A stretch of 64,000 bases of DNA from Hybos culiciformis (Eukaryota > Arthropoda > Insecta > Diptera > Hybotidae). The notes under the pieces are model-generated. The model was not told the origin of the DNA and did no database searches. It worked only from the letters and a program-made list of their open reading frames with translations. The stretch covers positions 150,952,444-151,016,443 of the forward strand of contig OZ023273.1 in assembly GCA_964007475.1 (NCBI GenBank), given 5' to 3'. The first letter of the stretch is position 1. Each line of letters starts with the position of its first letter. Made by a program: the position numbers and the translations under genes. Of this stretch, positions 19,147 to 39,199 are shown piece after piece.

Positions 19147-19177
19147 GCCCGTCAACAAAAAAATTTTGTCTTTTTGA

Positions 19178-19911
19178 TGCTAGAGATAGAGTCGACGTAA
19201 TTCACGCGCGTGTACGCACGTAAAAAATCAAATTGTATGAAAATGTATGAGACCGGCTATACGCAACGACGTAAAACGTAGCTTACGCGCGTAAAAGTTG
19301 AAATATTTTAACTTTCCCAGTATTTTACGCCGTACATTGTGGAAATCATTTGTTTATAATTGTGTTGTTTATTTTGTTGTAATTAGAAAAAAAAATTGTG
19401 TTGTTTATTTTGTTGTATTTAGAAAAAAAAAATTTTACAAACAAATAATTATTTAATAAAATAAAAAAGTTCATAAATATAATTATATTCAAAAATAAAA
19501 ATTAAATAATTATTTATTGCAAATTTATTAAAATTTTTTATGTTTTATTAAGTTATAAATAAATTAAAAAGCATTATAAAAATATTACAAACAGAATTTC
19601 GGGAATTAGGAATTTAATTTTATTTTTTTAAATTTTTATAAAAATTTTATTTTTTATTAAAAATTATAAAATTATAATTATTGTTGTATTTTATTTAATT
19701 TATAACTTTATTTTTATTAATTCTTTAACAAGAAGATCAAATTAAAATTAATCAAAAGAAATTAAAATTTCTTTTATTTTATTGTTGACATTTTTCTCTT
19801 TTGTTTTTCGCATGTGAACGGCGTTGAGCATAACAGGTAAAAAAAACAGGTTTTTTTTATTTTTTTTACGCGCGCATACGCGCGTGAATTACGTCGACTC
19901 TATCTCTAGCA
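19178..19911. mobile_element. PIF/Harbinger-like MITE, copy 1 (734 bp)
   Basis: The termini are TGCTAGAGATAGAGTCGACG and its complement, extending through GTAATTCACGCGCGT to a total of about 40 bp. The interior is extremely AT-rich and nearly identical to copy 2 at 21115-21877, apart from small indels. The flanking bases are TGA and TAA. Confidence 0.93.
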
Positions 19912-20044
19912 TAAGACTTCCTGCGCGCGCGTGTAGCTTCTTGGTATATGGCAATGCTATTTTATATTTATCAGCTATAAAATGCGCCATCTGCCTCACA
20001 CAAGTCAAAACTTCAATACGCACCTTGTGAAGTGCTGCATATCG

Positions 20045-20593
20045 GGGGTTGGACATTTGTCCGCGGGACATTTGTCCGCGATTTGTTTTTGTATCGCGGA
20101 CATAAAAATGACATTTGTCCGCGATTCGAAATGTCTTTTGTCCGCCGCGGACAAATGACATTTTCCAAAATGTCATTTGTCCGCGATTAAAATCAATCGC
20201 GGACAAATGACATTTTGCAAAATGACATTTGTCCGCTAAAAAAACTGAAAAATCAATCGCGGACAAATGACATTTTTCAAAATGACATTTGTCCGCTAAA
20301 AATTAAAAATTTCAATCGGGGACAAATGACATTTTGCAAAATGACATTTGTCCGCTAAAAATTCGAAAAATCAATCGCGGACAAATGACATTTTGCAAAA
20401 TGACATTTGTCCGCTAAAGTTAGAAAATTCAATCGCGGACAAATGTCATTTTGCAAAATGTCATTTGTCCGCTAATTTTGAGACATTTGTCCGCGGCGGA
20501 CAAATGACATTTTGCAAAATGACATTTGTCCGCGAAGTTTTCCATACAAATTTCATCGCGGACAAATGTCCCGCGGACAAATGTCACGGCGCC
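20045..20593. mobile_element. Foldback array 1 (word ACATTTGTC)
   Basis: An array of roughly seven 40 bp hairpins about 60 bp apart. Each has the form CGCG, complement of the word, core CATTTTGCAAAATG, the word, CGCG. The 9 bp word ACATTTGTC appears twice at each end, joined by CGCGGG and followed by CGCGAT. The outermost bases are GGGGTTGG at the left and, read inward from the right, GGCGCCGTG. A perfect 10 bp direct repeat CTGCATATCG (20035-20044 and 20594-20603) flanks it, which I read as a target-site duplication. There is no gene; open frames on both strands are shadows of the repeat. Confidence 0.93.
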
Positions 20594-21114
20594 CTGCATA
20601 TCGTGTATTAATTATTAAATCAAAATGTTTTAATACAAAATTTAAAATATTTTTAATATCTCGGTACTAAAATGTTCAGAAAATAATTAAAATAAAAATC
20701 AATAATTAAAATTTCAGAGATTTCCTGCGATATATCTGGGTGGAAATAACAATTTTTTTTTTTATTTATTTGAATGAGATTCAAAAAAATGCAATCACTT
20801 GTGCCGAATCTTACTATATAATACATGTGTTTAAAATTACAATGAGTAGATCTAAATCGATAAATATTGTACATATTATGGATATATATTATATATGAAT
20901 TCATTTAACATTATTTAAATTTATTAATACTATGTAAGTTTTTTATATATTGTAATATGAATGTATATCATAAAAAAGCTGGATAAAACTTAATTAATTA
21001 ATCGCCATTTGTGTTAGGAACTGTTCATTAAAAAACGTTTCAGCGAAAACTTGAAGGACGTAATGTTCTCAATTGATCTTATTTCTGAAGGTATTTGATT
21101 GTACTGAGTTATTA

Positions 21115-21877
21115 TGCTAGAGATAGAGTCGACGTAATTCACGCGCGTGTACGCACGTAAAAAATCAAATTGTATGAAAATGTATGAGACCGGCTATACG
21201 CAACGACGTAAAACGTAGCTTACGCGCGTAAAAGTTGAAATATTTTAACTTTCCCAGTATTTTACGCCGTACATTATGGAAATCATTTGTTTATAATTGT
21301 GTTGTTTATTTTGTTGTAATTAGAAAAAAAATTGTGTTGTTTATTTTGTTGTATTTAGAAAAAAAAAAAATTTTACAAACAAATAATTATTTAATAAAAA
21401 AAAAAGTTCATAAATATAATTATATTCAAAAATAAAAATTAAATAATTATTTATTGCAAATTTATTAAAATTTTTTATGTTTTATTAAGTTATAAATAAA
21501 TTAAAAAGCATTATAAAAATATTACAAACAGAATTTCGGGAATTAGGAATTTAATTTTATTTTTTTAAATTTTTATAAAAATTTGCTTTTTTATTAAAAA
21601 TTATAAAATTGTAATTATTGTTGTATTTTATTTAATTTATAACTTTATTTTTATTAATTCTTTAACAAGAAGATCAAATTAAAATTAATCAAAAGAAATT
21701 AAAATTGAATTAGATTTTTTTTTGAATTTATTTTTCTTTTATTTTATTGTTGACATTTTTCTCTTTTGTTTTTCGCATGTGAACGGCGTTGAGCATAACA
21801 GGTAAAAAAAACAGGTTTTTTTTTATTTTTTTTACGCGCGCATACGCTCGTGAATTACGTCGACTCTATCTCTAGCA
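21115..21877. mobile_element. PIF/Harbinger-like MITE, copy 2 (763 bp)
   Basis: Same termini and interior as copy 1. It is flanked by a TTA trinucleotide on both sides (21112-21114 and 21878-21880), a 3 bp target duplication as expected for PIF/Harbinger. It contains a short extra segment near 21707-21730 that is absent from copy 1. Confidence 0.95.
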
Positions 21878-22397
21878 TTACGAAAAACTTTTCAATTTTT
21901 TTGATAATATATGTACATTTATTTATTTTTTTTTTGGGTGGCAACACTGACATTCAACATAAGTTTCTTTTTCAAATTCTGGCAAGGCAACTCTTTTTTT
22001 TCTAGATTCGCTGATGTGTGGTGAATTGTGTTTGTGTGTGTGTGATAAGATATTAGAATTAGAAGCATGAAGCAGACAGATTAGAAGACGTCGCGTCGGT
22101 CGATAATTTGCGTTAAAAGTAAAAAAAAAAAAAAAACGTTCAAAGTTCAAGTTCAAACAGAAAAAGAAATAGGTATGTTAAATTAATTAATTTGTGGATA
22201 TAAATTCACTTATAAAATTTTAAATAGGAATATGTACAAGCAATATTCAAGCCTAGGTTGTTATTAAACAAAATACCAGAATCATCACTCCTCCAGCTCC
22301 CGTTAACACCAGCCATACGAATCTTCTATTTTTTTTATAGAAATACACTAGCTGGCTTTTTTTGCGAATGCGTGGCTAGGAACTTTAGGCGTAAGTG

Positions 22398-22640
22398 CAG
22401 ATGACGTGAACCATTCAGAATTGGCTGAATCTTGGTGGGGGGGTAGAGGCGGTACCGAAACCCCTACAACTGAAATCAGTTCTTGGGGCTCGGGCCCCGT
22501 TTCGAAGGTAGGGCCCCTAAAAGTTTTCATACATTTTTGTATGGAAAAATTTTTTTTTGTGCCCGATTAGCCCTATTTTTGGGAAAAGGATAAAGGGGGT
22601 ATCCCAGAACGAGAGGGGGGGGGGGGGTGGGGAACGGCGG
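22398..22640 (-). repeat. Dispersed repeat, minus-strand copy
   Basis: An inverted relative of 17240-17480, with the same blocks in reverse complement (TCAGAATTGGCTGAA, GGGGGGGTAGAGGC, ACTGAAATCAGTTCTTGGGG). It ends in a run of 14 G. Just beyond, 22650-22680 matches the centre of foldback array 2 (GGTTGGTCAGTGGGATTTGC, against its complement there). Confidence 0.8.
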
Positions 22641-23394
22641 TCGGGAGGTCTGGTGGTTGGTCAGTGGGATTTGCGGCTGGCGTGCTTTTTTTGGAAAGAA
22701 ATGTTTACCGGAACGTTATATTATTTTTAATTCTATAGAAGGAAAACCTATACAGAAACTGTATTTCTGTTGATTGTGATTGTAGGTAGGTACATTAATA
22801 TTAATATGCGGATTAGGCGTTGGAACATTGCAAGAAACTTTCGATGCGTTACCTTTCTCGCTTCGTTTGACTTTTTTTTTGTAGGGTACTAAAATAACTA
22901 TTTATATTTATTCTTTTCATATTCTTGGGACATATTTAAAAACTATGGGTACTTTTCCGTTAGCCGGGCGCTTTTTGCGGCGCAAATTTACTATATTATA
23001 AGTGACACTTTGAAAAATAAATGTAAAATTCTTAACTTCCTGAAATCTTTAAAGTAACGTCGAATAATAGCAATCGCAAAATAACTAGACAAAAAATCAC
23101 TAGAAAAAAAAAAAATAGAAACCAATAAATAGCAATCGGAAACCTAGGCAAATCTATGATTTAAAATTTTTATTAGATAAAAATTATCGTTAATTACGAA
23201 TTTTTCTCATGAAAAAAATAACGACAATTTTTTAAATCTAATAAAAATTGTTTTTTTATTTTTTATTTTATTTATATTTACCGGAGCTGTGCTCCGGTGA
23301 GCTCCGGTACAAAAAAAGCCCTGGGTATATTTAGATGAAATTCATGACCGGCTTCCATGTTTTTCATATAATTATATCATTTTCTTTTAATCCA

Positions 23395-23482
23395 GAGTTC
23401 AAATGTGTGTTCAATGTTAATTAGCTCTCTGTGTCTGTCATACACACGAGGGTCAATTAACATTGAACACACATTTGAGCTC
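23395..23482. repeat. Foldback hairpin, 88 bp
   Basis: GAGTTCAAATGTGTGTTCAA at the left pairs with TTGAACACACATTTGAGCTC at the right, and the inner arms run through TGTTAATTAGCTC / GGTCAATTAACA around a short loop. No gene. Confidence 0.85.
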
Positions 23483-24380
23483 TTATTAGGATTGTACAAA
23501 ATTGTACGAAAAATTATAGTTCTAGAAGATTTTGGTATTTTAATTTTACATGAAAAAATTAACTAGGTACCTACTTAGGTATTCAAGAAAATATTTAAAA
23601 AAAATCTAATCAATAAAAAATGCTAGAAGATAAAATGAGGGTTGTCTATGTCTCATATAAGTACTAGTAATATGTAAGCCTCGCCAGGCTTGAATACCTA
23701 CCCCATTGAATTGTTGATTTGTTACAATTTTTCTTGGTAGTTTTATTTCATATAATGTATCTACATATGTATATAATTATTATTTTGATTTGAATAAATG
23801 AAAAATTTGATATGTTTTGTGAATATTTAATCAAAATTACTGGAATCAATATAAATCAGTTTTTGATGCTCCTGGAAAATTTCATTTAATTAAATGTGCT
23901 CCACGATTTCAAAAAGGTTAAGAACAGTTGCTCTAACTGAATTCGTTTTCATTTCATTCTAGAAATTTTAAAAGATAAGGTAGTTACCTACTCAGATAAG
24001 TTGAATGTTTATTCTACTTAAAATTAACTCTTCTATTAGTATAACATGTTGAAAGACCAGTTGAACAAACACTCAAACCATCTGAATCTTGCTTAAGAAT
24101 TATTCAATAGTTTGTGAAAGAATAATATATAAAAACCATTCGAAGTCAAAAAAAAATGTACAAATATCTTAATGTAACTACCTATTAAAATATCTTTTAA
24201 GATGGTTCATCAAAAGAAAATTTTGAAAACAGAAGTTAAATAATTCAATATGAGAGTGAAAGTAAAGGAAAAAATATTTCCATCAGAAAATTCAGGTTCG
24301 TTTTTTGTGGAATTTACATTAAAATACATATTTAACTATTTGTATAATACAATAATAGTAGATTACAACACATGTTAAGA

Positions 24381-24529
24381 AAATTTGTTATTACAACGAG
24401 TTGTGTATACACAAAAACACATAGACACTTGTCAATACTTATATCACGAGATCGTTAGGTCGAGTGATATAATATTGACGTGTCCATTTGTTTTTGTGTA
24501 TATAACACAACGAGCTGTATAACAAATTT
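24381..24529. repeat. Imperfect foldback, about 150 bp
   Basis: The arms AAATTTGTTATTACAACGAG and (right, reversed) AAATTTGTTATACAGCTCGT continue through TTGTGTATACACAAAAACA and ATATCAC. The central spacer contains CGAGATCGTTAGGTCGAG. It looks like a small MITE; I found no clear target duplication. Confidence 0.75.
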
Positions 24530-25317
24530 TATTATATTTTATGTTTTGTATACTGTTTTAATGTGCATGTGATAGGTAGTTGCAATCAATACATTTGCAA
24601 TGCAAAAAATAAAGAAAAGTTCAAAATGAAGAAAGTAAATAAAATTGAAGTGTGGTAAATAAAATTGAAGTGTGTAGGTAAATAAAAATTTTCTTAAATA
24701 AATAATTAACGCATTTAATATACCATTTACCGAGCTAAATTTACGATCTTAAATACAACTTATCGATCACATGCACATTAAAATTTATTATGGGTACCCA
24801 TGCCAGTTATTCACGACTTTCGAGTAATAAAATTTATGAATTTTGATCAAACTTACCAAAATAAATACTATTTTCAAAAAATTCAATGACTATACATTTC
24901 TAGTTTTACTCGAATGGATAGGAGAATAGCATTTTTAGTTTTGATCATAATTTATAATAAATAAACCCCTTTATTTTTAAGAAACATGGAAATATCAAAA
25001 GCTTTTTGATGTAGACAAACTTGCTTTTGCTTGTGATGCTTGACTATGATTTCAGAAGCAAACATAAAAATATTAATATCAAAGAAAAGTGGTTTCTGAA
25101 AAGACAGCTTTGTGGTGATAGAAGTTTAGAAAGCTCTGCTAACGCAATTCTTCTACGGGAAAATTCTACATGTAAAAGATTTTTTTTTATTTAGTGATAA
25201 ATCTTAAAAATTTCAAACATTAGATATTTAGATTTTAGAAAGTTTGTATCTATGTTCGCAATTAAAAAATATTATTTAAAATTTAAAACTCAAATTGTAA
25301 TAATTTTAGGTCAAAAC

Positions 25318-25420
25318 ATGGAAACGGATTCAGAAAATACTGTAAAATCAAATTTAAATGATTCTAATCCTATCAACAGACCAAGAATCGTATTAAAAAA
25401 AACATTACCGTTAAAAAAAG
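25318..25420 (+). CDS. ZMYND8: ZMYND8-like exon 1 (N terminus)
   Basis: Encodes [20 protein letters not shown] and 14 more residues, ending in a basic KKTLPLKK stretch; phase 1 with donor G|GTAGGT. The ATG is chosen because it follows a splice acceptor closely and the frame joins exon 2 exactly. Confidence 0.75.
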
Positions 25421-28400
25421 GTAGGTATTAAACAATTTAATTAAGCTTTAATTTATTACAAAATTAAAAAGCTTCATACAAATTTTTTTGAAGTTAATAC
25501 TGCTTTAGGCGCGTTGTAGAGGGTAAAAATCTATTTTCAAATTCGAGTCTCGAAAACGCGTGAGATTTTTTCTCAGAAAAAAAAGAATAAGAATACTCAA
25601 AATACGACTCGACTCGAATTTGAAAAATGTACACAAAAAAAAGATTGGTTATTTATTAGAATTTTTATTAAATTCTATTATGCTTTCATCCGGTTTCGAA
25701 CCTGCGTTCTTAACGTTGCAATCTCCCCAACAATGCTGAGAACGCTGGGGGGTTATTATGTATTTCGCGTTCGAATGAGGATCCGTTCGAAAGTTATTTT
25801 CGATTCTTTTATTTATTAGCATTATGTAAAACGTTCGAATAATAATCAGGTGCAAGCGGATTATAGCTTACTTTATAAGAGATTTTGTTCGAAAGAAGAG
25901 ATTTTGTTCGAAAGAAGAAATTTTGTTCAAAAGAAAAAACGTCAAAGTTATCTTAATTTTTTTTAAATTTTGTTGTTGAAATAAAAAATAATAATAAAAA
26001 ATAAGAAATTTTAAAATAAAACATAAAATATACATTTTTATATTGTTTCCATAGAGATCACGGTCACGTTTTCTTTTTCCCGCAATCCACAATCTTCTGC
26101 ATCATCGATTCCGTCAATTGGAGTATTGAAGTCGAGCAGCTGCACAACTTTTGATTCCACCTGCAAAAAAGAATGCTGACGACTTTGGCCACCTCCAGTT
26201 CCTGAAATATTTATTTTGTTCATTCTTAATTTTTTTTTAATATGATTTTTATAATCTGCCCATACCTAAAAAGAGTAAATAATGAACATGAATTTTTAAT
26301 TTTTTGTTTATTCCATACTAACTTTTTTCCACTCATTTCCGTTGCGTATAGGAGGGCCTTGGGCATTTAATTCGGAGGATAACTCGTTCTACATGTTTTT
26401 GGTTTTAATTCTTGCATCCGGCGATTTGAGAAAACCCTTGGCGAAATCCGGATAATTTTTCATGTAGTCCACAATAATTGCGAATTGTTCACTTTTTGTG
26501 TTGGCGCATTTTTTTTTCTCCCTGAATTTAAATTATTTAATTTAAAAACGAGATATAATAATTTTATAATATCAATAAATTAATATTTTTATTTCTTTTT
26601 ATTTGATTTCACAATTAATAGGTACTTACATTTCAAAATTTATTGTTAGCTTCTTTTCCGATAACATAAAAGATAACTAATAAATTTTTCGAAAATGGAA
26701 TATTTTTTTTTATGTTTTCGATTTCCATAATGCTTAGGAAAATAGATTTACATCCTACTTTAAAAAAATTCCGAATGACATAAAAATCCGAATGAAAAAA
26801 AAAAAATTCGAATGTCGTTCGAAAATCGAATTGCATAATGCATCGAAGCATTATTCGATAAAAATTATGTTAGAATCGAATTGCATAATAACCCCCCAGG
26901 TTCGAATCTCAAAGAAGGCAAAAAATCTAGTATGAATTGAAATCTATATATAAATGAAACTATTACTTTTATATTTATACCAAATTCTTTAGATAAAATG
27001 CAACCAAAAATTTTTTTTCAAAATAGGTAGCTCTCCTACCTGACCAAAAATTTTGGATAGGGAGCTACTGTTAGAGTCTTCCCGGCTCAAAATATACGAA
27101 ACAATTTTTTTTTTTTTTTTCAAAATATGTAACTCCGGTGAAATAAAGACTACCTGCTCAAAAATTTTGGGTAGGGAGCTACGGTTAGGGTCGTCTCGGC
27201 TCAAAATAAACAAAAAAATGGCATAAATTAAAACTAAATTAGTTTAAATATACATTTTACATTATAATTTTTTAGGTGATGAATCAAGCAAACCAAATTT
27301 GTCGCGGAGAATTTTACGTTCATCAAGTTTAAGCAATAGAGATCCACATTCTATTACTGAAGAAAAAGATATTAATTTGTCAAAAAAATGGCGATCATGT
27401 GAAAATTTAAACTTACGTAAGGAAACTGAAGGAAAAACTAAGAACTTAAGTTTAACATCTGAAGTTCCTTCTCCAAATTTGAGTTCAATTAAAAAATTGT
27501 GGGAAAAAACACCAATTAGGGTAAATAAAAATTGTATAATTTTATATGAACATAGTTCCTATAATCTGAATCAATGATGTCTGTATCTTAAAGACTTTGA
27601 ATGTTCAGTCTAATACATAACTCATTCGTTACTTATTAGATTAATACATAACTCATTCATTACTTTGTAGAGATCAATTGTGGGGATATTGTGACACTTA
27701 TTCCTTATTCAAATAAAATATGAGCATTAATTTTTAAAAATGTTTCAGCTTGGATCAGATGGATTTTGCTCCAAGTGTCACACTTGTGGATACAAATTAA
27801 TTTTTTGTATAAAATGTCCACGATCATATCATTATAAATGTGTTAAGTTGTATAATATTGATTCTAAAGATGAATGGATTTGTCAAGAATGTAGATCATT
27901 GCAAAATTTATCTGAGTAGAGTTTTGGAATATTTTTATTTTATTTTTTTTCAAAGCATTTTTTTTTTTTCTTTTTTAGAAATGGGAAAATATCAATATCA
28001 CAACAGCTTTTAAATCAGTTACTACAATATGTTTTAAATAAAGCTAAACAATTAGAAGGGGTAATGATATTCTTCTTCTGAAATGATTTCCCCACTATCG
28101 TAGAATTAACGATTTCGGAGAAAAAATTTTGAATTTGTCTTTCAAACTACAAACCAGCTTTTCCATAAGAAAGAAAATATTAATACGACTACATATTGCA
28201 ATATTTGATTTATTTTAGGTTGACGCTTTTGTCGAAATTCCGTCCGATAATGAATTCCCTGATTACAGCAAATACATAATTAAGATTGTAACGATTAATT
28301 ATTTACAAAAAAAAGTTACAAACAATGAATACAAACACAGCAAAGAGTTTATTAATGAAGCGCAATGGATTTCTCATAATGCATTATGCTATTTCGGAAG

Positions 28401-31400
28401 TAGATTAAATTAATTGAATAAAACTAAGATGAATCAATTATTATTTTTATTTATATCGTAGGTCGATCAAAATTTTCCGAAATTGCAAAAAAACTAGTTG
28501 AAATACTTCGAAAAGAATGTTATGAAATAAAACTTTGTCATGAATGTTATTTGAATTCTAATACGAAAGCAAAATGGTTTGTTGAAATATGTTCAAAACC
28601 TCATCTCATTGTGTGGGCCAAACTTAGAGGCTTTCCGTATTGGCCAGCAAAAGTAATGCAATTTAATCCACCCTCAATGGTAAATGTGGTATTTTTTGGA
28701 GATCATTCTCGTAGTACAGTGAACATAAAATCAGTATTTTTGTATTCAAAAGAACATCCTTACAAACAAATAGGAAAAAAACACAGAAATTTGGTGCAAA
28801 CAGCCGTCAACGAAGTGAATGTTCATATAGAAAACTTAAAAATGAAATTCGGAAATTTTCATTACGATTCATTCAAAACACCCTACAATCAAACGGTAGA
28901 CCAATTGCAGCAAATGATTCCTGGTATCAACAATTGTATTGGTAATAAATTCGTCACCAATTATTTCATTAATATTTTTATAATTTATAAATTCTTGAAT
29001 TTTAGACTTTATTATAACTACTTTCTATGGTTCCATGACATTGCACCTAATGTCATTTAACTTAATCGGATTTTAGACATTCAACAAAAGAATTCTCAGG
29101 CTGAGTAACATTTTTAAAAAATGTGACCGAACCAAAAAATATTTTGTCAACGAGCCCAATCCAAATTTTGTATATTTTTTTAAAATTAGCTGAAATGTCA
29201 CAGAACCAATGTCATCAAACCAGAATCTAGATTTTTTTAGATTTTAGGCTGAGTATATACCTAACATTTTTCAAAAATGTCACAAAAAATAAAATTTGTC
29301 GACGATCTTAATCCAAATTTTTTTGGGTTGGCTAACATTTTTCATAAATGTCAACGAACCAAAAATATTCTATCAACGAGCCTAATCAATACAAAAATTA
29401 AGGAGTGATGTTGTGAAAAAAAAATTTCGGAATGAATAAATTTCGACAAAAAAAAAAAATCGAATTAATTCAAAAATCCTCGAAAAGCCAGAAATCTGGG
29501 TTTTAGAGTTGGAATTGTCTGGTAAAAACAAATTTTATGATTTCAGATTTTATTTCACTTGAAATATAACATTAAAAATTAGTTTATTTAATTACAATGA
29601 AAATAAAAAAAAAAATTGAATTCATTATTAATCAAAAATTTGAAACAAAAAAAATTAGACTCATGTTGCCTGCAAAAAATTTAGATGTAAACGATTTGCT
29701 CTATTGCTTAAGAACAATTTTAGTAAATAATATTTTGTTCTTGCCTAATCTGGACATTTTTTTTATGCTAACTTTTATATATTAATATTTTATTTTTAAT
29801 ATATTAAAAGCAATTATTTATATTCACACAGGAAACTTATTGTTTATTATTTGAGAATTATTTTTACTTACAATTACTGGAAGATTATTTCGTGTCCTTA
29901 AGAAAAGTATTGATTATTATTTGAGAATTATTTTTACTTGAAATTACTGAAAGATTGTTGAATTGTTTCGTCTTTAATTTCGACGTTTTTTTAAGGGTTA
30001 TTTTTCGAGATTTTTTCATTCGAGCTAGAGCTCCAAACCCCAAAAGTAAATATAAAACCAAATTTTAGTAAATATGTTGAAAAAACAAATATTTAAAGCA
30101 AACTGAATATTTATAGATCAAAATGTTAGATCTTTAAAAATTTTAATTTTTTAGGAATTGCTCAAAGTTCAAGAAAACAAGATATCATTGAAAACAATAA
30201 AAAAGAAAATATCAAAAATAAAATAGAAAATATCAAAAATAAAAAAGAAAATATCAAATCATCGGTCGTAGTTAAGGTCAGAAATGAGAGAAAAAAAATG
30301 GAAACTTATAAAACTGATACCGTAGCAAATGAAAATAATAGTCATAGTGAGTTTACGGTAACACAAAATTTTACCATTAAACGAAGTCACGAAAAGAATG
30401 ATTTATATTCATCACGTTCTGCAAAACAAAGAAAAATTTACAAAATAAATTCGGACAAACAAAACATTAATAAATCTAATTGCCAAAATTTTAATATTAA
30501 CAACTCAAATAAAAGTTTAGAAAACACATCAAAGCCAAAGATTAATGAAACAAACGGGAATATAAATAGTTTAGATCCAAGAATAATACCAAGTTCAGTT
30601 AATCAACTTAAAAACGATGAACTGAAACAACTAATGAATGGACTAATAAATAAACTTAGCACAGTCCAAGAGGAAATAGATGAGTTGAAGAAAAATATGG
30701 AGATAGAAAAAAATCGAGAAATTAGCGAAATTCGAAAGCAATGTGAAGAGGAGCGAATAAAAGCTGTCAATGAAATGGAGCTAGAAAAAAATCGAGAAAT
30801 TAGCGAAATTCAAAACCAATGTGAAGAGGAGCGAATAAAAGCTGTCAATGAAATGGAGGTAGAAAAAAATCGAGAAATTAGCGAAATTCGAAAGCAATGT
30901 GAAGAGGAGCGAATAAAAGCTGTCGATGAAATAAAGAATAAACTAGTGATTTGTGTGCGCAGCATTAAACCTTATCAAATATTCAACGTACCAGTAAGTA
31001 AAGTTTTTTTTTTAATGTTAGGAAACTGTTTGTTCGGTTCACAGAAACGAAATATCGTTATATTTCAAGAACGAAAAAAGACAAAACTAAATAGATTTTT
31101 TCAGATCCTTACACTCCAAAATCGATAAAAATAGACTTACTGATTCTGACAGTTTCGTCAACGACATATGTCTTTATTTAAAAGACTACACATAAGAATT
31201 GTCTGAATCTTGTGAATTTGACTTATACAATTTGATTGCATGCCATATTTGTGTGCATGATTTGTGTGATGAACAACAAAAACAAAAAACAGTTGTGTAA
31301 ACTGTTTCGGTCAAATTGCAACGAAAAAATTGAGTTTACCAAAAATTCTTTTTATATACCTACAAAATTTTTATTTTATATCAATTTCGAAAATTTAATA

Positions 31401-34400
31401 ATCAAATGTTTTTCATTTTTATTTCCAAAATTATTTATTAACGTTTATACAACTTACATTTCTATCCTAATCTAGATTTATGAAAAATGATGATTCGACT
31501 AATATACCAAAAAGCATGTATATAAAGAGGAATCAGTCCCATACAAAAAAAAGAATAAAAATAGTGAAACAAAAAATCCATATCATGAGCTTTTTTTTTT
31601 TTTTGAGAATCCCACTCACAAAAGCTTTTAAAACTTTAAAAATTGTATAGAACTGTTGTTATTTTTGAAGTTTTTTAAAAGCTTTTGTGAGAGTGGAATT
31701 CTCAAAAAAAAAACACGAAGCAGTCATAGGAACTGCCGAAAGAAGTTAATACTTAAAAGCTTTAAAATATGAAATAACAGTGGCTACAAATGATGGGCTG
31801 TTCAGTACAAAATTAAATTAAAAATCAATTTTATTGAAGGCAAGATTTTGTATTGTTACATTTTATTTTAATTTACATTTTGTACTGAGCAGCCCATTTG
31901 TAACCACTGTTATTTCATAGTTTAAATCTTTTAAGTATTAACTTCTGTCAGCAATCTATGACTGCTTCGTGTTTTTTTTTTTTTTTTTTTTCATATTTTG
32001 AGTCGGGAAGACCCTAACCGTAGCTCCCTACCCAAAATTTTCGGTCAGGTAATGTTTATTTCACCGGAGCTGCCTATTTTGAAAAAAATAATTTTTTTTT
32101 GTATATTTTGAGGCCAGAAGACCCTAACCGTAGCTCCCTACCCAAAATTTTTGGTCAGGTAATCTTTATTTTACCGGAGCTACCTATTTTGAAAAAAATT
32201 TTTTTTTTTTAATATTTTGAGCCCGGAAGGCCCTAACCGTAGCTCATTACCCAAAATTTTTGGTCAGGTAATCCTTATTTCACCGGACCTGCCTATTTTG
32301 AAAAAAAAAATTTTTTTTGTGTATTTTGAGTCCGGAAGGCCATAACCGTAGCTCCCTACCCAGGGCCGGCTCAACTGTTAAGGCGCCTTGTAGACATATA
32401 CATTTTTCCGCCCCCATATTATTTCTTAAACTTTTTAATAATAAAACTTCTGGGAAAAATGTATGAATATATTTATTTAATATTTAAGAGTTATTTATAC
32501 AAACTCAAACCAAATGAATTTAGATCGAACTCAAACCATATGGATGAAAAAACTTGTAAACAGCTAAAGATATGCAAAATATTTATTATTATGTAGATAC
32601 TACCCTTCTGTATATTTTGTATTAAAATTAGCCAAATTATTAATATATATTACAAACTTTTATAATTTTTAATATTTTTTTAAATTATTTAAATAAAATT
32701 AAAAAAAACGTAAAAAAATGTGTCAATTTGCCGCCCCTAAATTATGGCGCCCTATGCATTTGCCACATTTGCATCGCTCCTAAGCCCCACTTCCGCCCTC
32801 ACTTCCGCCCTCACTTACGCCCTCATTTCCGCCCTCACTTCCACCCTCACTTCCGCCCTCATTTCCGACCTCACTTCAGCCCTCACTTCCGCCCTCACTT
32901 CCGCCCTCACTTCCACTCTCACTTCCGCCCTCTCTTCCGCCCTCACTTCCGCCCTCACTTCCGCCCTCACTTCCGCCCTTACTTCCGCCCTCATTTCCGC
33001 CCTTACTTCCGCCCCCACTTCTGCCTTCACTCCCGCCCTCACTTCAGCCCTCACTTTCGCCCTCACATCCGCCCGCACTTCCACTCTCACTTCCACTCTC
33101 ACTTCCGCCCTCACTTCCGCCCTCACTTCAGCCCTCACTTCCACTCTCACCTCCGCCCTCACTTCCGCCCTCACTTCCGCCCTCACTTCTGCCCTCACTT
33201 CCGCCCTCACTTCCGCCCTTACTTCAGCCCTCACTTCCGCCCTCACTTCCGCCCTCACTTCCGCCCTCACTTCCACCCTCACTTCCACTCTCACTTCCGT
33301 CCTCACTTCCGTCCTACCTCTTTTCAGCCCTCACTTCCACTCTCACTTCCGCCCTCACTTCCGCCCTCACTTCCGCCCTCACTTCCGCCCTTACTTCAGC
33401 CCTCACTTCCGCCCTCACTTCCACTCTCACTTCCGTCCTACCTTCCGCCCCCACTTCCGACCTCTATTCAGCCCTCACTTCCGCCCTCACTTCCGTCCTC
33501 CCTTCCGCCCCCACTTCCGACCTCTATTCAGCCCTCACTTCCGCCCTCACTTCCGTCCGTCCTTCCGCCCCCCACTTCCGCCCTCACTTCCGTCCTCCCT
33601 TCCGCCCCCCACTTCCGACCTCTATTCAGCCCTTACTGCCGCCCTCACTTCCTTCCTTTTTTTTTGGACAGGTAATCTTTATTTCACCCGAGCTACCTAT
33701 TTTGAAAAAGATTTTTTTTGGTATATTTTGAGCTGGGAAGACCCTAACTGTAGCTCCGTACCCAAAATTTTTGGTCAGGTAATCTAATTATTTCACCGAA
33801 GCTACCTATTTTGGAAAAAAAAAATTTTAACATATTTTGGGCCGCCACGACCTAACCGTAGCTCCCTGCCCAAAAATTTTTCGCCAGATAATTTTTATTT
33901 CACCGGAGCTACTTATTTTGAAAAAATATTTTTTTTTGGATATTTTGAGCCGGCATGACCTAACCGTAGCTCCCTGCACAAAAATTTTTCGGCAGGTAAC
34001 TTTATTTCACCGGAGCTACCTATTATGAAAAAAAATTTTTTAATTTTAAATAATTGTAAACGAAAGATTTTTAAAAAATAATTTGAATTTAAATTTTTCA
34101 CGCCAAATTATTTTGTTTTTATAAATGACAAATGATTATTGAGTGGACCACTCATTTTTTTGAGTATTGAAACGTCAAAAAACTATGTCGTTTCGAACTC
34201 GAATGAGTCCGAAAAAAAATTTTTACCCTCTACAGAATAACAACGTCCCTAAAGAAGTGTTAATTTCAAAAAGAAGCTCATAGGGTTGTGATATGGATTT
34301 TTTGTTTCACTATTTTTATTCTTTTTTTTTTGTACTAGTCGAAATACCCGGCTGCGCACGGTAGTACCGAACTTATATTAATATCAAAACACTTTAATTC

Positions 34401-36101
34401 AGATTTTGTGCACTAAAAAAACAGAATTTCAAAATTTGTTAAAAAGCTACTTCCCCGGTGCCTTAACACATCCAGTCTTCTAAATAGTCGATTCGGGTCC
34501 AACGCTATAATATTTTATCGGAATATACCTAATTTGCAAAACCGCCTTCCGTCGGAGCCTCGGATCCTCGGATAGACTCCCGTCGGTGCCTCGGATCAAA
34601 AATTTCTAGTACCCTATAAGCATCTTGGGTCTCTAGGCTCCATATTTTCAAAATTCCAAAACGGTTGGGAGCCTCTCGACATCCAGTTTTTTAAATATGC
34701 TTTTCGAGCCCAACTCTACTATATTTTATTGGAATATACCTAAACTTCAAAACCGGCTTCTAAGGTAGCCCCCCGTCGGAGCCTCGAATCAAAATTTCTA
34801 GTACCCTATAACCATCTCGAGGCCCAATGCAACTTAAGTTCAAAATTTCAGCCAAATCGGTTAAGCGGTTTAGGCATGATTGAGGACAGAGGACAGAGGA
34901 CAGAGGACAGAGGACAGAGGACAGAGGACAGAAAACAGAAAACAGAAAACAGAAAACAGAAAAACAGAAAAACAGAAAAACAGAAAAACAGAAAAACAGA
35001 AAAACAGAAAAACAGAAAAACAGAAAAACAGAAAAACAGAAAAACAGAAAAACAGAAAAACAGAAAAACAGAAAAACAGAAAAACAGAAAAACAGAAAAA
35101 CAGAGAAACAATGAATTTTGATTTTTATTCATAAGATGGGACTGATTCCTCTTTATATACATGCTTTTTGCTAATACATAGCATAGATTAAGAATACAAA
35201 TAGATTGTTAGCTTCATACGACATTATTTTTGGTATTTTTATGTGAATGTGTTAGTAAAACAAAATAAAATACGTGATAATTATCAATATATGAAAAGAA
35301 TTTTATTTAGTTTTACTAACACATTCACATAAAAACACCAAAAAAGGCTGAAAAAATGTTGTATGAAGCTATAAATCTTTCTGTATTCTTAATCTATGTA
35401 CATAGTCAATACCGACTTAATACTATACTGGTGCAACATTACTGTTTACCATACCAGTATTTTTAAATTAGATTTTTGGAAGAACATCAGTGAATTAATT
35501 CCCGCAATTACCCTATTAGACGTAACGAAAAATGATTATTTATTTTTTGTGCAAAAAAACAAACACAAACATTTTTATTTTGACAAAATACTTTGCATTC
35601 TGATTACATATTTTTAGGCATGGTGTTTTATCATGATTATTTGATATTTTTATTTCATACAAACTTTCAAGCGTACATTAAAAATATTGATCATCATGAT
35701 TATTGTTTAGTACGTCTAACTCCCGTGTAAACACAACCAAGTGTTACTTTTAAAATAATAATCTTATGCCTTTTATATTAAAAATTATATAAAAAGTATT
35801 GGTAACTTATAATAATGAAGGGTCTTGCAAAAAGTATCTAAGAATATTTCGCAAATACAAACTAGGAGTGTTTTAATAGTAGATGTGTTGAGTTTTAAAG
35901 TTAATACTTTTTGAAATTTTCTTTTTTTTGTGAAATAATCAATTGTAGGTACTTAATAATATATTATAATAAGCTCCTTTAAATAATGTTCAATTTTTAT
36001 TTTATTTTTTTCTACTAACATTATTTTTGTTTATTAAAAATATCGTTATCTAGGGAACATCACAATTGGGTGAGCATATTAGAAACCTTCTTGATGATTG
36101 A
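25318..36101 (+). CDS. ZMYND8: ZMYND8/ZMYND11-type chromatin reader (PHD-bromo-PWWP), diverged
   Basis: ZMYND8 family proteins are nuclear histone readers that combine PHD, bromodomain, a zinc knuckle, PWWP and a C-terminal MYND finger. Exons at 25318-25420, 27276-27520, 27749-27915, 27979-28060, 28219-28399, 28462-28941 and 30155-30997 join in consistent phases with no stop. Tentative last exons are 35406-35521 and 36054-36101, giving 754 aa. If exon 7 instead reads through, the protein ends at 31128 with 743 aa. PHD ligands (residues 123-164) and the PWWP core FPYWP (317-321) are intact. The bromodomain has Tyr-Phe where the family has Tyr-Asn, and the zinc knuckle and MYND have lost cysteines. 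An acceptor precedes the ATG (TTTTAG at 25309), so a 5' non-coding exon is likely. The introns are full of transposons. It may be a fast-evolving orthologue or a paralogue. Confidence 0.88.
25745..26899 (-). mobile_element. Harbinger-like element carrying a broken zeste-type Myb/SANT gene
   Basis: The perfect terminal inverted repeats are CTGGGGGGTTATTATG at 25745-25760 and CATAATAACCCCCCAG at 26884-26899. Inside lies a minus-strand gene of the zeste-like Myb/SANT kind that accompanies PIF/Harbinger transposases in insects. No transposase ORF remains, so the copy is non-autonomous. No convincing 3 bp target duplication is visible. Confidence 0.8.
26038..26522 (-). pseudogene. Zeste-like Myb/SANT DNA-binding protein, disrupted
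   Basis: The minus strand encodes [40 protein letters not shown], then an in-frame TAG (26391-26389) at a position that is Trp in the family (MWNEL), then [21 protein letters not shown] short intron (about 26320-26268) leads to [16 protein letters not shown] and a low-complexity C-terminal part ending at 26038. The fold is the Myb/SANT-like domain of zeste-type regulators found in transposons. The internal stop argues that this copy is dead. Confidence 0.75.
26989..27213 (-). repeat. Satellite-like repeat, two inverse units
   Basis: Two units of the roughly 110 bp repeat that is arrayed at 31985-34030, here on the opposite strand. Recognisable blocks are CCCAAAATTTT-like, GGTCAGGTA-like and the CACCGGAG/TATTTTGA segment. 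The open frame with repeated [12 protein letters not shown] peptides is a shadow of the repeat. Confidence 0.85.
27276..27520 (+). CDS. ZMYND8: ZMYND8-like exon 2
   Basis: Encodes a Ser/Arg/Lys-rich, probably disordered linker ([20 protein letters not shown] onwards) ending KLWEKTPIR just before the PHD finger. Acceptor TTTTTTAG, donor AGG|GTAAAT, phase 1 in and phase 0 out. It joins exon 3 without any frame correction. Confidence 0.85.
27749..27915 (+). CDS. ZMYND8: ZMYND8-like exon 3: PHD finger
   Basis: Encodes [31 protein letters not shown] and EWICQEC. The zinc ligands C123, C126, C136, C139, H144, C147, C161 and C164 follow the PHD C4HC3 pattern and align directly with human ZMYND8 (CPRVYHAKC). 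Acceptor TGTTTCAG; donor GA|GTAGAG, phase 2. Confidence 0.93.
27979..28060 (+). CDS. ZMYND8: ZMYND8-like exon 4: start of bromodomain
   Basis: Encodes [28 protein letters not shown], corresponding to the first bromodomain helix of ZMYND8 (LTIEQLSYLLKFAIQKMKQ). Acceptor TTTTTTAG, donor GGG|GTAATG, phase 0 out. Confidence 0.88.
28219..28399 (+). CDS. ZMYND8: ZMYND8-like exon 5: bromodomain core, key residue lost
   Basis: Encodes [20 protein letters not shown] through [18 protein letters not shown]. It aligns with ZMYND8 DAFQKPVPLEQHPDYAEYI and ADAKWILHNCIIYNGG. The acetyl-lysine-binding Asn after the Tyr is Phe258 here, and the HPMDL loop is replaced by IKIVTI. Acetyl-lysine binding is therefore doubtful. 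Donor A|GTAGAT, phase 1. Confidence 0.9.
28462..28941 (+). CDS. ZMYND8: ZMYND8-like exon 6: zinc knuckle and PWWP domain
   Basis: Encodes the end of the bromodomain, the knuckle CHECY...WFVEIC and the PWWP domain. PWWP landmarks are [14 protein letters not shown] (310-323), VVFFGDHSR, the SKEHPY segment and [16 protein letters not shown], all close to ZMYND8. The third knuckle ligand is Val in WFVEIC where the family has WFCEPC, and the family AWVP after the HDR motif is STVN. Acceptor TATCGTAG, donor TTG|GTAATA, phase 1. Confidence 0.94.
28942..30154 (+). other. ZMYND8-like intron 6 with degenerate tandem repeats
   Basis: Contains diverged copies of a block with TAACATTTTT, AAAATGTCA/AAATGTGAC, CGAACCAAAAA and CAACGAGCC at 29060-29400. 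It also has a tandem duplication of ATTATTTGAGAATTATTTTT at about 29846-29945. No coding sequence; the ORF at 29597-29785 is not supported. Confidence 0.7.
30155..30997 (+). CDS. ZMYND8: ZMYND8-like exon 7: linker and coiled coil with triplicated unit
   Basis: Begins [20 protein letters not shown] in the phase demanded by exon 6. It has an Asn/Lys/Ser-rich disordered stretch followed by [20 protein letters not shown], then a Glu/Lys/Arg coiled coil that matches the pre-MYND coiled coil of ZMYND8. A 26-residue unit, starting [20 protein letters not shown], is present three times (30697-30774, 30775-30852, 30853-30930). It then reads [18 protein letters not shown], where ZMYND8 has [18 protein letters not shown], so the first MYND Cys is kept but the second is Ser. 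The end is a GTAAAG donor at 30998 (phase 1) or GTAAGT at 30994 (phase 0), or read-through to a stop at 31128. Confidence 0.85.
30697..30930 (+). repeat. In-frame 78 bp tandem triplication
   Basis: Three 78 bp units differing at only a few positions (for example MEIE/MELE/MEVE and RKQ/QNQ/RKQ). Each encodes 26 aa of coiled coil, which is not a multiple of the 7-residue heptad. The near identity shows a recent expansion or ongoing conversion. Confidence 0.95.
31714..31971. mobile_element. Foldback hairpin, 258 bp, nested
   Basis: The ends are CACGAAGCAGTCATAG and CTATGACTGCTTCGTG. The arms continue through GTTAATACTTAAAAG, GAAATAACAGTGG and GCTGTTCAGTACAAAAT with their complements. No coding capacity. 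It sits in the right arm of foldback copy B. Confidence 0.88.
32361..32787. mobile_element. hAT-type element remnant
   Basis: Starts CAGGGCCGGCTCAACTG, a typical hAT-like terminus, with AAGGCGCC just inside. The other side has TTGCCGCCCCTAAATTATGG and GGCGCCCTATGCATTTGCC, which mirror the inner left end. The outer right terminus is missing and is replaced by the minisatellite that follows. No transposase is left. Confidence 0.65.
32788..33658 (+). repeat. 12 bp minisatellite CACTTCCGCCCT
   Basis: About 70 imperfect copies of CACTTCCGCCCT, with ATTTCC, ACTTCAG, ACTCTC and GTCCTC variants. The 3' third is organised in a higher-order pattern with GCCCCCACTTCCGACCTC and TATTCAGCCC repeated about four times. 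Because 12 is divisible by 3 and the unit lacks stops, three long frames are open; these are not genes. Confidence 0.95.
34205..34265 (-). repeat. Terminal segment of satellite-bearing element (inverse copy)
   Basis: The reverse complement reads GAAATTAACACTTCTTTAGG, then GTTGTTATTCTGTAGAGGGT and AAAAATT, matching 25487-25540 (GAAGTTAATACTGCTTTAGG, GTTGTAGAGGGTAAAAATC). In both places the same satellite lies on the inner side, so the two are ends of one element family. Confidence 0.7.
34335..35136 (+). mobile_element. Dispersed retroelement-like repeat with simple-sequence tail
   Basis: Starts CTAGTCGAAATACCCGGCTG. It contains a duplicated block of about 200 bp (ACATCCAGT, GGAATATACCTAA, GTCGGAGCCTCG, TTTCTAGTACCCTATAA twice) and then TTCAGCCAAATCGGTTAAGC, a tail resembling the 3' end of insect LINE/SINE elements. 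It ends in ACAGAGG repeats (7 bp), then ACAGAAA (7 bp), then ACAGAAAA (8 bp, about 18 copies) to about 35105. The class is inferred and not proved. Confidence 0.6.
35182..35398. mobile_element. 217 bp MITE at the exon 8 acceptor
   Basis: The inverted ends are CATAGATTAAGAATACA and TGTATTCTTAATCTATG, with arms continuing through GCTTCATAC/GTATGAAGC and ATGTGAATGTGTTAGTAAAA. A perfect 7 bp direct repeat TACATAG lies at 35175-35181 and 35399-35405. The right-hand repeat ends in the AG used as acceptor in the tentative exon 8 model. Confidence 0.92.
35406..35521 (+). CDS. ZMYND8: Tentative exon 8: degenerate MYND-like segment
   Basis: In the phase left by the GTAAAG donor of exon 7 this reads [16 protein letters not shown], then [10 protein letters not shown]. 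Against the ZMYND8 MYND ([22 protein letters not shown]) Ile, Tyr, the second Cys, Thr, Tyr and the final Trp fall at the same spacing, while most zinc ligands are replaced (Trp, His, Phe). The donor GAC|GTAACG is phase 0 and joins exon 9. If this is not an exon, the gene ends at 31128. Confidence 0.38.
36054..36101 (+). CDS. ZMYND8: Tentative exon 9: C terminus
   Basis: After acceptor GTTATCTAG, phase 0 gives [15 protein letters not shown] and a stop. GEHIRN is weakly like the last MYND helix (PEHMKS). It is very short and supported only by phase and acceptor. Confidence 0.25.
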   Translation, partial: GTSQLGEHIRNLLDD

Positions 36102-38446
36102 ATATTTGGAATTGACAGAATTTTCACCAAGCAAGATTATGAACTAATATTTAAAAAACCATAAAATTACAATAACAGCTCCAAATTTTTTTTGAAATAA
36201 TATTATTCAAAATACAACATACGTTTTAATTAGAAATTACACAATTCGCTTTTTCATTTCAATAATTTGAAAAATAAAATTAGGTGCAGAAATATCACTA
36301 CATAGTTTTATTGCAATTGAAAAAAAAAAAGGATGTAACTTGTCGATTTGCAGAAAAAATTTAAAGTGCTTCAGTAAAAAAAAAAAAATTAAATAGACGG
36401 TGCCTAAAAGTAAACACAAGCAACACGAACAATTCAAAATATTTTTAGAAAGAAAACCACAAACCGAACCATCTTTTATAAAGTGTGTGTGTCTCAGCCT
36501 TTTCATCAACCTATTTCGCAATCATGAAATTCATGGTCGAATTTTCTCATTGGGCGTTTTACACTTGAACTCAATGCATGTGATTCGCGGGAAAAAGCTA
36601 CATTAATATTATTGGAATTATTCACCTACGGCAATACTTAGGCACATTCTACTATGGATATTTTCGAAAAAATAATTTTCTATAATCGTTACATTTGAAA
36701 TTTAAATACCGGTGTTTTTTACTTTTAAATTATCTAATTTTTATTTTACTAATATTTTAATAATAAAATTCGGAAAAATTTGGCATTACGCTTACATGTG
36801 ATTATAATAACAATAAATAAGCCTTCATGTGAATTAATGTTTTAAATAAATAACCAAAAAACATATTTTACAAACCAAACATCATTATCTTAATTTTTAT
36901 CTTTATTCTAAATATGTGTTATGCCTATTTAAAAATATTCTAAAATCTTTTTATTGTAAATTAGTAAGCTTAGACCAGGTAAAGTTGGAGTAGCAACTTT
37001 CACTTGCCTACATAGACCTAAAGGTTCCGACGGTACCACTAAAAAGTCTCCATGGAGCGTACAAGGTTGTGGACTATATTTTACCAGATAGGAAACTATC
37101 TTTCTCGAAAATGTAAGTAGGGTTTTTTTTTTGTTTGAGGCTAAAGGCAACGATATGTTCATCCTACCTTTTGCTAGGGCTGGACAATGACATTAGATGC
37201 TGAACACTTTCTACCTAGTTAGGTTCGTCTTATTTCCTACTTTTATCATGTCGAGGAATTTAATCTACAGTCTGATGAACAATACCTAGTTATTGTAGCT
37301 TTTAAGGAGCCGATTACGGATCGTTTGAATTTCAGAAGTTTTTTGGTTTTCTTTTGATCCCCAAAAATTTTGTTCGCTTTCGATGTTGGTTCATTGTTCT
37401 ATCTACTGTTTATTTTTTTCAATCATTGGGGATTCCAATTATTTAAAGATAGAACCGTAGTATGGGTTGTCCCTGAAAGTTCTTTCCACTTTCTTAAATG
37501 CATCTTCTCTTTGACTTCGGTGAGCTCTATGGCCCACAAAAGCCGAATTCTCCTTTTTTTTTTCTCTTATTCTATTAAAAATCATAATAATCATTTCTCA
37601 AAACATTTATATTATCTTTATTTTATAATATTTACTTATAATAACAAAACACAACAAAATATCCAACATTTTCATTAAAATTTACAATTTTACAATTTAT
37701 ATGTTTTGTAAAATTTTCACAATTTTATGTATAATTAATAATGTATAAGTATTTTTAATTAAAAATCTATTTTATAATATAATGGATGTAAATTTCAAAT
37801 TTAAAGTTTTATTTTTTTTTTCTTTGGTTTTTTTTTATAATATTTAACTTTTATTTTAGTTTTCTTCTTTTTTTTTTAATTTTAATGGTAAGAAAAAAAG
37901 TTTACGTTTTGTTTACTGTTTATTTAATAATATAATGACTATAATATAACCCCACAATAAAAAAAAAATATTTTACATATCTTTTTTCGGTGGCTTAAAT
38001 GCAAAAATTGTTTTATTCATTAATTTATTTTTAATATTAATATCACACAATTTCATTAAAAAAAAAATCAAAAAAAAAAAAATATTCAAGTGCCTTGTGC
38101 AAAAATTTATCTAAAAAAAATCTACCTAACGATATTCAAACCTTAGACACATTAATATCAAATTTTAAATACATTCTGATCGAAAAGTATATTTATGTAG
38201 GTAATTATATATATATACATATAGTTGATTGAAGTAACCGTACGTAGGCTGAGAATATTATTTTGAGCTCTAAAATTTAAAAATTATGATAGTTGCACAG
38301 AGAAATTTAGAATCTAAATATTTTAAGCTCTGAATTATTATGTTCTAATATTTCAAAAAAAAAAAATCTCTAAGCCTATTATTTATAAATGCGCCTTTCG
38401 GGAAAAGAATTAACATTATAAATAACAAATTATATTTATATATACT
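36102..38446. other. Intergenic stretch with a dispersed-repeat fragment
   Basis: 36290-36500 resembles 18240-18600 (CACTACATAGTTTTATTGCA, TTTGCAGAAAA, ACCATCTTTTATAA), a fragment of the hAT-like family. The segment 36950-37540 is less AT-rich and could be an old element, but I recognise no protein in it. The remainder is plain AT-rich DNA. Confidence 0.55.
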
Positions 38447-39199
38447 GGCGCAGTGAAATAAGGCTGCGGGAAATAAGGCCGCGATAGGTTTTTTGTTGCG
38501 GTCTTATTTCATTTTGAAAAATGAAATAAGGCCGCGAAAAATCCTCGCGGTCTTATTTCATTTTGAAAAATGAAATAAGACCGCATAAAATTCCTCGCGG
38601 CCTTATTTCGTTTTGAAAAATGAAATAAGACCGCGACAAAAAAAAAAAATTATTCGGAGGCCTAATTTCATTTTGAAAAATGAAATAAGGCCGCGAGGAT
38701 TTTTTCGCGGCCTTATTTCATTTTGAAAAACGAAATAAGGCCGCGTAATCTTGTGAGGTGAGCACACAGGGCAGGGGGCAGCAGGGCGGCGGGCGGGCGG
38801 TTGGTCAGTGGGCTTTGCCGCTAGCGCCGCAAATCCCACTGACCAACCGCCCGCCCGCCGCCCTGCTGCCCCCTGCCCTGTGTGCTCACCTCACAAGATT
38901 ACGCGGCCTTATTTCATTTATAAAAATGAAATTAGCCCTCCGAATAATTGTTTTTTTTGTCGCGGTCTTATTTCATTTTTCAAAACGAAATAAGGCCGCG
39001 AGGAATTTTTTGCGGTCTTATTTCATTTTTCAAAATGAAATAAGACCGCGAGGATTTTTTCGCGGCCTTATTTCATTTTGAAAAACGAAATAAGGCCGCG
39101 AAATAATTTTCGCGGCCTTATTTCATTTTGCAAAATGAAATAAGACCGCAACAAAAAAACGTCGCGGTCTTATTTCCCGCGGCCTTATTTCCATCCCCC
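38447..39199. mobile_element. Foldback array 2 (word AAATAAGRC) with GC-rich centre
   Basis: A large palindrome. Each arm (38447-38812 and 38835-39199) carries several 40 bp hairpins of the form CGCG, complement of the word, core CATTTTGAAAAATG, the word, CGCG. The ends read GGCGCAGTG (left) and GGGGGATGG (right, inward), each followed by the word, a GCGGG joint, the word again and CGCGA. The centre is a GC-rich perfect stem (GAGCACACAGGGCAGGGGGC onwards) with a short loop at 38813-38834. The flanks are AT-rich, so the target duplication is unclear. No gene. Confidence 0.93.

Follow-up and report, generated by a model that had tools for sequence, protein, structure and literature searches.

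Can a transposable element keep its scaffold while a short word repeated throughout it is replaced? The question is raised by two foldback arrays, A1 and A2, in a 64,000-nucleotide stretch of the Hybos culiciformis genome (contig OZ023273.1, positions 150,952,444 to 151,016,443), referred to here as the window. Both arrays are built of 40-bp hairpin units and bounded by a common end scaffold, into which a 9-base word is set, ACATTTGTC (word 1) in A1 and AAATAAGRC (word 2) in A2. An original prediction, made from the letters of the window, proposed that the word is a specificity element that is exchanged as a whole and spreads through each array by conversion. Having compared the two arrays, surveyed their relatives across the genome and read the ends of transposase-bearing elements in the same assembly, we put at about 65% the probability that A1 and A2 represent sister non-autonomous foldback families of the Mutator-like element (MULE) type, in which the word is the likely site of the transposase DNA-binding domain and word and transposase changed together.

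Architecture of the two elements

The 40-bp near-palindromic units contain the core CATTTTGMAAAATG or close variants of it (seven units in A1, ten in A2), and this core, at up to two mismatches, occurs 40 times on the two strands of the window against 11.0 occurrences expected; none of 100 shuffles gave as many as 40. A1 and A2 alike carry GGGGGWTGG at one end (the G-type end) and GGCGCMGTG at the other (the C-type end), followed in each case by the word, YGCGGG, the word again and CGCGAY. As predicted, all four ends carry this scaffold with two copies of the word (up to one difference). The copies are spaced by 15 bp, and the arrangement occurs nowhere else in the window. The predicted likeness of architecture held for the units and the ends; the layouts differ, A1 being a head-to-tail array with linkers of 12–21 bp between its hairpins and A2 a large inverted repeat of 5 + 5 hairpins flanking a 156-bp GC-rich palindrome. 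The linkers of the right arm of A2 are offset by one unit relative to the left arm, one having been lost and one gained. The predicted limits of A2 were exact, and A1 begins at 20044 rather than 20045 (Table 1). Both elements fold into extensive stems (DNA parameters, no shuffle control), and no open reading frame (ORF) of at least 150 amino acids is listed in either.

A1 is flanked by a perfect 9-bp target-site duplication (TSD), an agreement found at 15 of 63251 placements with equal spacing in the window. The 9-mers flanking A2 agree at only 6 of 9 positions, and at least this agreement occurs at 2558 of 63047 placements.

Table 1 Coordinates of the two elements, their parts and the related 8-kb elements. 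Positions are those of the window unless a contig is named.
Feature	Position	Strand	Remark
A1 TSD, left copy, CTGCATATC	20035..20043	.	same 9-mer abuts the other A1 end
A1, word-1 (ACATTTGTC) non-autonomous foldback element, complete, 550 bp, G-type end left	20044..20593	+	other copies with 8–9 bp TSDs
A1 G-type end: GGGGGTTGG, word, CGCGGG, word, CGCGAT	20044..20082	+	
A1 head-to-tail array, seven 40-bp near-palindromic units	20146..20534	+	
A1 C-type end: GGCGCCGTG, word, CGCGGG, word, CGCGAT	20555..20593	-	
A1 TSD, right copy, CTGCATATC	20594..20602	.	
A2, word-2 (AAATAAGRC) non-autonomous foldback element, complete, 753 bp, C-type end left	38447..39199	-	
A2 C-type end: GGCGCAGTG, word, TGCGGG, word, CGCGAT	38447..38485	+	
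A2 left arm, five hairpin units	38497..38745	+	
A2 central GC-rich palindrome, 156 bp	38746..38901	.	by-eye likeness to palindromes elsewhere in the genome
A2 right arm, five hairpin units, inverted copy of left arm	38902..39150	-	
A2 G-type end: GGGGGATGG, word, CGCGGG, word, CGCGAC	39161..39199	-	
8-kb foldback MULE-like elements with long end arrays of a 15-bp word	C1:870457-878546 and C1:6914959-6922720		

Two further repeats accompany the elements. The central palindrome of A2 (GGTTGGTCAGTGGG...) resembles, by eye, a palindrome in L262 (around C1:877123) and strings in L227 and L254, and is therefore probably an independent mobile repeat inserted into A2. An element of ~750 bp with 51-bp terminal inverted repeats flanks A1 in two copies that are 95% identical (19177–19912 and 21114–21878), and its 51-bp repeat is also found in L232 and L233.

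Two discrete families spread by transposition

We searched the assembly of the species itself (342,369,924 bases in 509 contigs). The exact core gave 5743 + 5711 matches against 15 + 9 in the reversed control, and the G-type end with free words gave 299 + 294 (593) against 4 + 1. Among the 100 G-ends listed of these 593, 77 were of the GGTTGG form with ACATTTGTC-type words and 23 of the GGATGG form with AAATAAG-type words, as counted by eye. Of 14 loci at the first core matches listed, nine carried word 1 alone and four word 2 alone (apart from a few degraded arms); the remaining locus, L187, held one element of each kind 4 kb apart.

To characterize whole elements, we paired ends at loci L183–L226 and in the window, which yielded 27 unique elements, 20 with word 1 (340–1306 bp) and seven with word 2 (189–753 bp). 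Five pairs of overlapping loci (L186/L197, L188/L198, L191/L199, L192/L200 and L193/L201) were counted once among these elements and twice in the tallies of hairpin arms and word pairs. One G-end was paired with one C-end in 26 of the 27 elements, the remaining one having two G-ends. Perfect TSDs of 8–9 bp flanked 22 of them, comprising 18 of the 20 word-1 elements (11 of 9 bp, 7 of 8 bp) and four of the seven word-2 elements (all of 9 bp), that is, 15 duplications of 9 bp and 7 of 8 bp. No element mixed the two words, and the words paired at the ends were 1 with 1 in 54 cases, 2 with 2 in 16 and mixed in none. The TSDs and paired ends identify cut-and-paste transposition of two discrete families, of which A1 and A2 are single copies; the families are related, gene-less, non-autonomous and of foldback type. 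The duplications fall within the 8–11 bp range of MULEs; P elements leave TSDs of 8 bp, so that duplication length would not exclude the P superfamily.

Tabulating words by locus thus upheld the predicted uniformity of each element, every one examined being uniform, and returned two words rather than many (100 of the 593 G-ends listed). Copies of one end type diverge by 2–4% over their first 38 bases, which suggests a fairly recent spread. Two letters of the scaffold itself are family-specific, W of GGGGGWTGG (T or A) following the family in all 36 fetched G-ends, and M of GGCGCMGTG being C in 19 of 21 word-1 ends and A in all nine word-2 ends. The 15-bp unit of word 1 also expands in tandem, with ~7 copies in a row at C2:55833402; a pattern of two word-1 words preceded by a third of a word matched 24 + 28 times, overlapping matches included.

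We found no third family on the scaffold of A1 and A2 among words whose second position is G or T, those with A or C there being covered in the first 100 of the 593 G-ends. The search for the former gave 12 matches genome-wide against 4 in the reversed controls; ten were judged by eye to be GC-rich strings. The two AT-rich candidates were fetched; one was a decayed word-1 copy, and the other lacked all the further end and hairpin motifs searched for. The word AATTTTGRC occurs with a 14-base core in only two copies, and its 13-base-core form is present in L261. In another collection of genome contigs the hairpin pattern matched four stretches, which we attribute to chance, the paired 9-mers being complementary at only 1–5 of 9 positions; in a collection of viral contigs, neither the hairpin pattern nor either exact word pair occurred. 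Generic end patterns gave at least 170 matches in other collections; among the matches listed, the two words agreed at six or more of nine positions in nine cases, and the single 9/9 agreement was a GC-rich tandem string. A literature search, which did not extend to Repbase entries, found no published description of the two families, and we know of none.

Divergence of word and scaffold

We compared 14 hairpin arms of A1 with 20 of A2 column by column. Within each array, divergence of the word was 0.06 (A1) and 0.08 (A2), while that of the first eight linker bases was 0.57 and 0.51. Between the arrays, the word diverged by 0.50 and the core by 0.11; the value for CGCG, 0.19, was hardly higher than those within the arrays (0.18 and 0.17). 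The ends behaved likewise, with 2 of 21 scaffold positions (in either end type) and 8 of 18 word positions differing between the elements, and 5 and 6 of 21 scaffold positions and 0 and 1 of 18 word positions differing between the two ends of one element. Low divergence of the word beside drifted linkers argues for a word that is constrained within a family, yet differs between families. The contrast between word and scaffold, for which the original prediction held that the scaffold is spared, is nominally significant in this single comparison of A1 with A2 (P = 0.011–0.025) and falls to P = 0.06–0.16 once the choice of word boundaries is allowed for.

The exchange of the word is also less complete than had been proposed. 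ACATTTGTC is not found everywhere in A1, whose arms read (A/T)CATTTGTC, with the first base T in 8 of 14 arms and CATTTGTC constant. The two words are family-specific; they are, however, identical at 5 of 9 bases and different at 4 of 9, and the arms show three fixed differences and a fourth that is only near-fixed, A2 having the A1-like T in 2 of 20 arms.

Family-specific words beside MULE transposases

The assembly holds 145 matches to the MULE transposase domain (150 of 167 candidates scored), and we read 30 of these loci, each extending 1.5 kb beyond the domain. FLYWCH and MULE domains were present in all four near-complete transposase ORFs scanned. The inverted ends of the elements are arrays of ~15-bp words specific to the family; from the 30 loci we chose 11 families with a clear array, whose units are GAGCGAAAGCAAAAA, ACATTTACTCGAAAA, GGACAATTCACCGTAT, AAAATCCCAAAAAAT, TACAGTGAAATGAAA, TTCATCGTAAAGCAA, ATTCGTCTAAAACA, AAAATCCAGTAAGAC, AAATCCCGGAAATCA, AAATCCCGGAAGACA and AAAACCTCGAAAAAA. 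In four families, those of L235, L238 and L254 (with GTACG) and that of the L252 type (GGGTTGGTGTCTAAA), GGGTTGG stands directly before the array. The same motif is carried by the end of A1, and the end of A2 carries GGGATGG; an end motif is thus shared with transposase-bearing MULEs of the same genome. GGGTTGG lies beside a word array in 12 of its 13 occurrences in the 98463 bases read, where base composition predicts 1.7 occurrences; the loci are L235, L236–L240, L245, L246, L249, L252 and L254, several of them near-identical copies.

We next asked how transposases and words covary. Across the 11 families, transposase identity correlated with word similarity (Mantel r = 0.512, P = 0.001; without L252, r = 0.452, P = 0.005). 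The input was one hand-chosen representative and one hand-chosen unit, rotated or reversed, per family, truncated ORFs included. Three loci were omitted: the distant MULEs L227 and L250, neither with a clear word, and L243, whose word is that of L228.

We also searched the genome for the word-1 half-site at a 15-bp period, which matched 1945 + 2104 times against 83 + 42 in the control. Nearly all places listed belong to another family, with the unit GACATTTGACAATCT in inverted arrays ~8 kb apart. The two copies read at their ends (Table 1) have 8-bp TSDs, judged by eye, and GGGGGG at one end with a different sequence at the other; the subterminal GACATTTGCCCACGGACATTTG of these elements is close to GACATTTGTCCGCGGGACATTTG of A1. 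An ORF fragment inside one copy resembles MULE transposases (35.7% identity over 56 amino acids, E = 1.6e-9, in a set of 30 proteins). Hairpins with a third word (AAATG, AATTTTGAC, CGCG), similar to the A1/A2 type, are nested in the copy at C1:870457-878546. A word-1 tandem on C499, 9 kb from a MULE match, had been considered as an autonomous partner and proved to be a short separate element.

Weighing the explanations

That the word is uniform within every element examined, and that a like rule holds in MULE families of the same genome, makes a role in transposase recognition likely. We infer that A1 and A2 are themselves MULEs; the word is most likely a site bound by their transposase, the constant end motif most likely a cleavage signal, and the word-1 and word-2 families were presumably moved by different transposases. 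The original prediction of a specificity element is thereby favored in a more definite form, that of a predicted binding site.

Several observations weigh against this reading. The contrast of word 1 with word 2 draws on one pair of families, and one of the 100 G-ends listed, among the 77, has the intermediate second word AAATTAGTC, so that point-mutation steps between the two words exist. Five of the 27 paired elements, A2 included, have no perfect TSD. GGGTTGG is not universal, being present at 12 of the 30 MULE loci and in none of the DNA read for the families of L228, L231, L241, L244, L248 and L253, and L251 and L247 are without it although their relatives carry it. In shuffle tests none of the 11 family words showed significant likeness to the words of A1 and A2 or to the unit of the 8-kb elements (the best score was reached by 166 of 1000 shuffles for A1, 623 of 1000 for A2 and 758 of 1000 for the 8-kb unit). 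The Mantel correlation is also expected if word and transposase are simply inherited together without binding. An autonomous relative with these termini, which the original prediction suggested looking for, did not appear: word 1, word 2 and the core were found in none of the 30 MULE loci read of the 145, and a tblastn search with the longest ORFs of the MULE loci gave no match at E 1e-4 in the fetched hairpin-element loci or the window.

The most serious competitor, which we regard as unlikely though by no means negligible, is ordinary divergence of subfamilies, in which the word is the fastest-changing part of the repeat unit and is uniform because each family descends from a single master copy. 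The small number of differing word bases, the loss of nominal significance once word boundaries are allowed for, the intermediate AAATTAGTC end and the family dependence of W and M would all suit this explanation. Against it, the word is kept within an element (6–8% divergence, with 51–57% in the adjoining linker) and yet differs between families, and repeated family-specific words recur in MULE families that bear a transposase. Spread of the word by conversion or unequal exchange within arrays, the mechanism originally proposed, appears very improbable. Units are indeed gained and lost, as the shifted linkers in the right arm of A2 attest, and word-1 copies expand in tandem; the linkers, however, have not been homogenized, and none of the 27 paired elements mixes words. 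In 21 of 29 word-1 G-ends, moreover, the variant word TCTTTTGTC is found at an unchanging offset of 90, which marks it as inherited and neither erased nor spread by conversion (for another variant, AAATTAGCC, present in 12 arms, no fixed offset was found in the end sequences). Uniformity of the arrays is best explained instead by the descent of each family from one ancestor.

Slightly less probable still is that the hairpins function as hairpins, in cruciforms, structured RNA or small-RNA precursors, with the word a mere stem sequence. The extensive predicted stems of both elements are in keeping with such a function. In 87 of 101 word-1 hairpins of the fetched loci and the window, however, one arm carries ACATTTGTC and the other TCATTTGTC, leaving an A·A or T·T mismatch beside the core, and the R position of word 2 pairs in 22 of 39 hairpins, which is near random. 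The kept mismatch and this pairing show that perfect hairpin pairing is not what is conserved.

Recognition of the word by a transposase would work as follows. A transposase acting in trans would cut at the constant asymmetric pair of ends, GGGGGWTGG and GGCGCMGTG, and cutting and insertion would give target duplications of 8–9 bp. The word, spaced by 15 bp near the ends and set in inverted pairs inside, would be the binding site of the DNA-binding domain, for which the FLYWCH finger is a candidate, and the many copies may raise affinity and specificity. Once the two families had split, each word would have changed together with its own transposase, and each family would then have spread by copying, leaving every array uniform.

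More tentatively, and at somewhat less than even odds, the genome may hold a dozen or more parallel MULE systems of one design, in which the catalytic core recognizes an end motif and the FLYWCH finger a repeated word that can be swapped, finger and word changing together as new families arise, so that families become blind to the ends of others. If so, hairpin elements with words 1, 2 and 3 would record finger/word switches, and the paired transposases and words a natural table of FLYWCH recognition. With 11 sampled transposase families in one genome, each beside its own word, two questions become directly testable: which sequence the FLYWCH finger recognizes, and what keeps MULE families that share ends from mobilizing one another. 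The hairpin elements offer a compact example for distinguishing scaffold from word.

Other features of the window

Pfam matches in the window are to a protein kinase, PWWP and the ZMYND8 coiled coil. A joined tribbles-like protein has its nearest relatives among insect proteins, the best named ones mostly dipteran, at ~50% identity or less. A tandem repeat of ~109 bp occurs at 27006–27218, 31982–32362 and 33661–34043, once inverted, and a 12-bp minisatellite (32784–33652) lies between two of these places. An open frame on the minus strand (40520–43555) encodes 1011 amino acids with long glutamine runs and has no Pfam match.

Comparison with known systems

The nearest known systems are Tm1 and Muta1, compared here, like the others below, on the available portions of the cited reports. 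Tm1, a Mutator/Foldback element of root-knot nematodes, has two different 7-bp end motifs, a 9-bp TSD, and GGA followed by 13–15 bp tandem repeats with a consensus ending in CCGC; 30 of its 39 copies in M. incognita resemble miniature inverted-repeat transposable elements, and the term FLYWCH appears nine times in that report (PMC3169594). Two different end motifs per element are likewise found in 26 of our 27 pairs. Tm1 differs in having one tandem motif (PMC3169594), whereas the word of A1 and A2 also flanks a fixed AT core as inverted pairs, and here two sister families keep the scaffold and change the word.

Muta1 and Muta5 of Aedes aegypti have 8–9 bp TSDs, a short terminal motif and, next to it, a repeat of 12 or 15 bp present nine times in subterminal position; a FLYWCH finger is present in 13 of the 14 MULE families of that mosquito, and Muta1 is termed a type-2 Foldback element (PMC5225508). 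Ends of this type recur in our families, as a 9-bp end motif followed by word units at 15-bp spacing, and tandem expansion of the word-1 unit is like that in Muta1 and Muta5 (PMC5225508) and in Tm1 (PMC3169594). The available text on Muta1 and Muta5 describes no hairpin array of the A1/A2 kind and reports no test of repeat binding (PMC5225508). Tetris of Drosophila virilis, which its authors place in Mutator, is a further non-autonomous foldback element; it contains tandem repeats and has TSDs of 8–10 bp, but its repeats are of 220 bp and the portion available reports no 9-bp word (PMC4079207). Rehavkus shares the 9-bp TSD, occurrence in arthropods and a minisatellite near one end; its transposase has a PHD finger (PMC6446971), whereas the elements with shared ends here have transposases of the FLYWCH-MULE type.

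Galileo of Drosophila has a P-like transposase with a THAP domain, and its flanking duplications are of 7 bp, in place of the 8–9 bp of our families. It resembles our families in its long, internally repeated terminal inverted repeats (TIRs) with demonstrated repeated transposase sites, its terminal ~40 bp being conserved between families and the binding site lying in family-specific DNA (PMC3688188, PMC3573991). As of 2013, the repeats of Foldback and Phantom elements were stated to be as yet untested as binding sites (PMC3688188). The THAP domain of Galileo recognizes several sites repeated along the long TIR of its own element, and its binding to certain other subfamilies is weak or absent; Galileo thereby provides the experimental precedent for conserved ends accompanied by repeated sites that are specific to a subfamily (PMC3688188).

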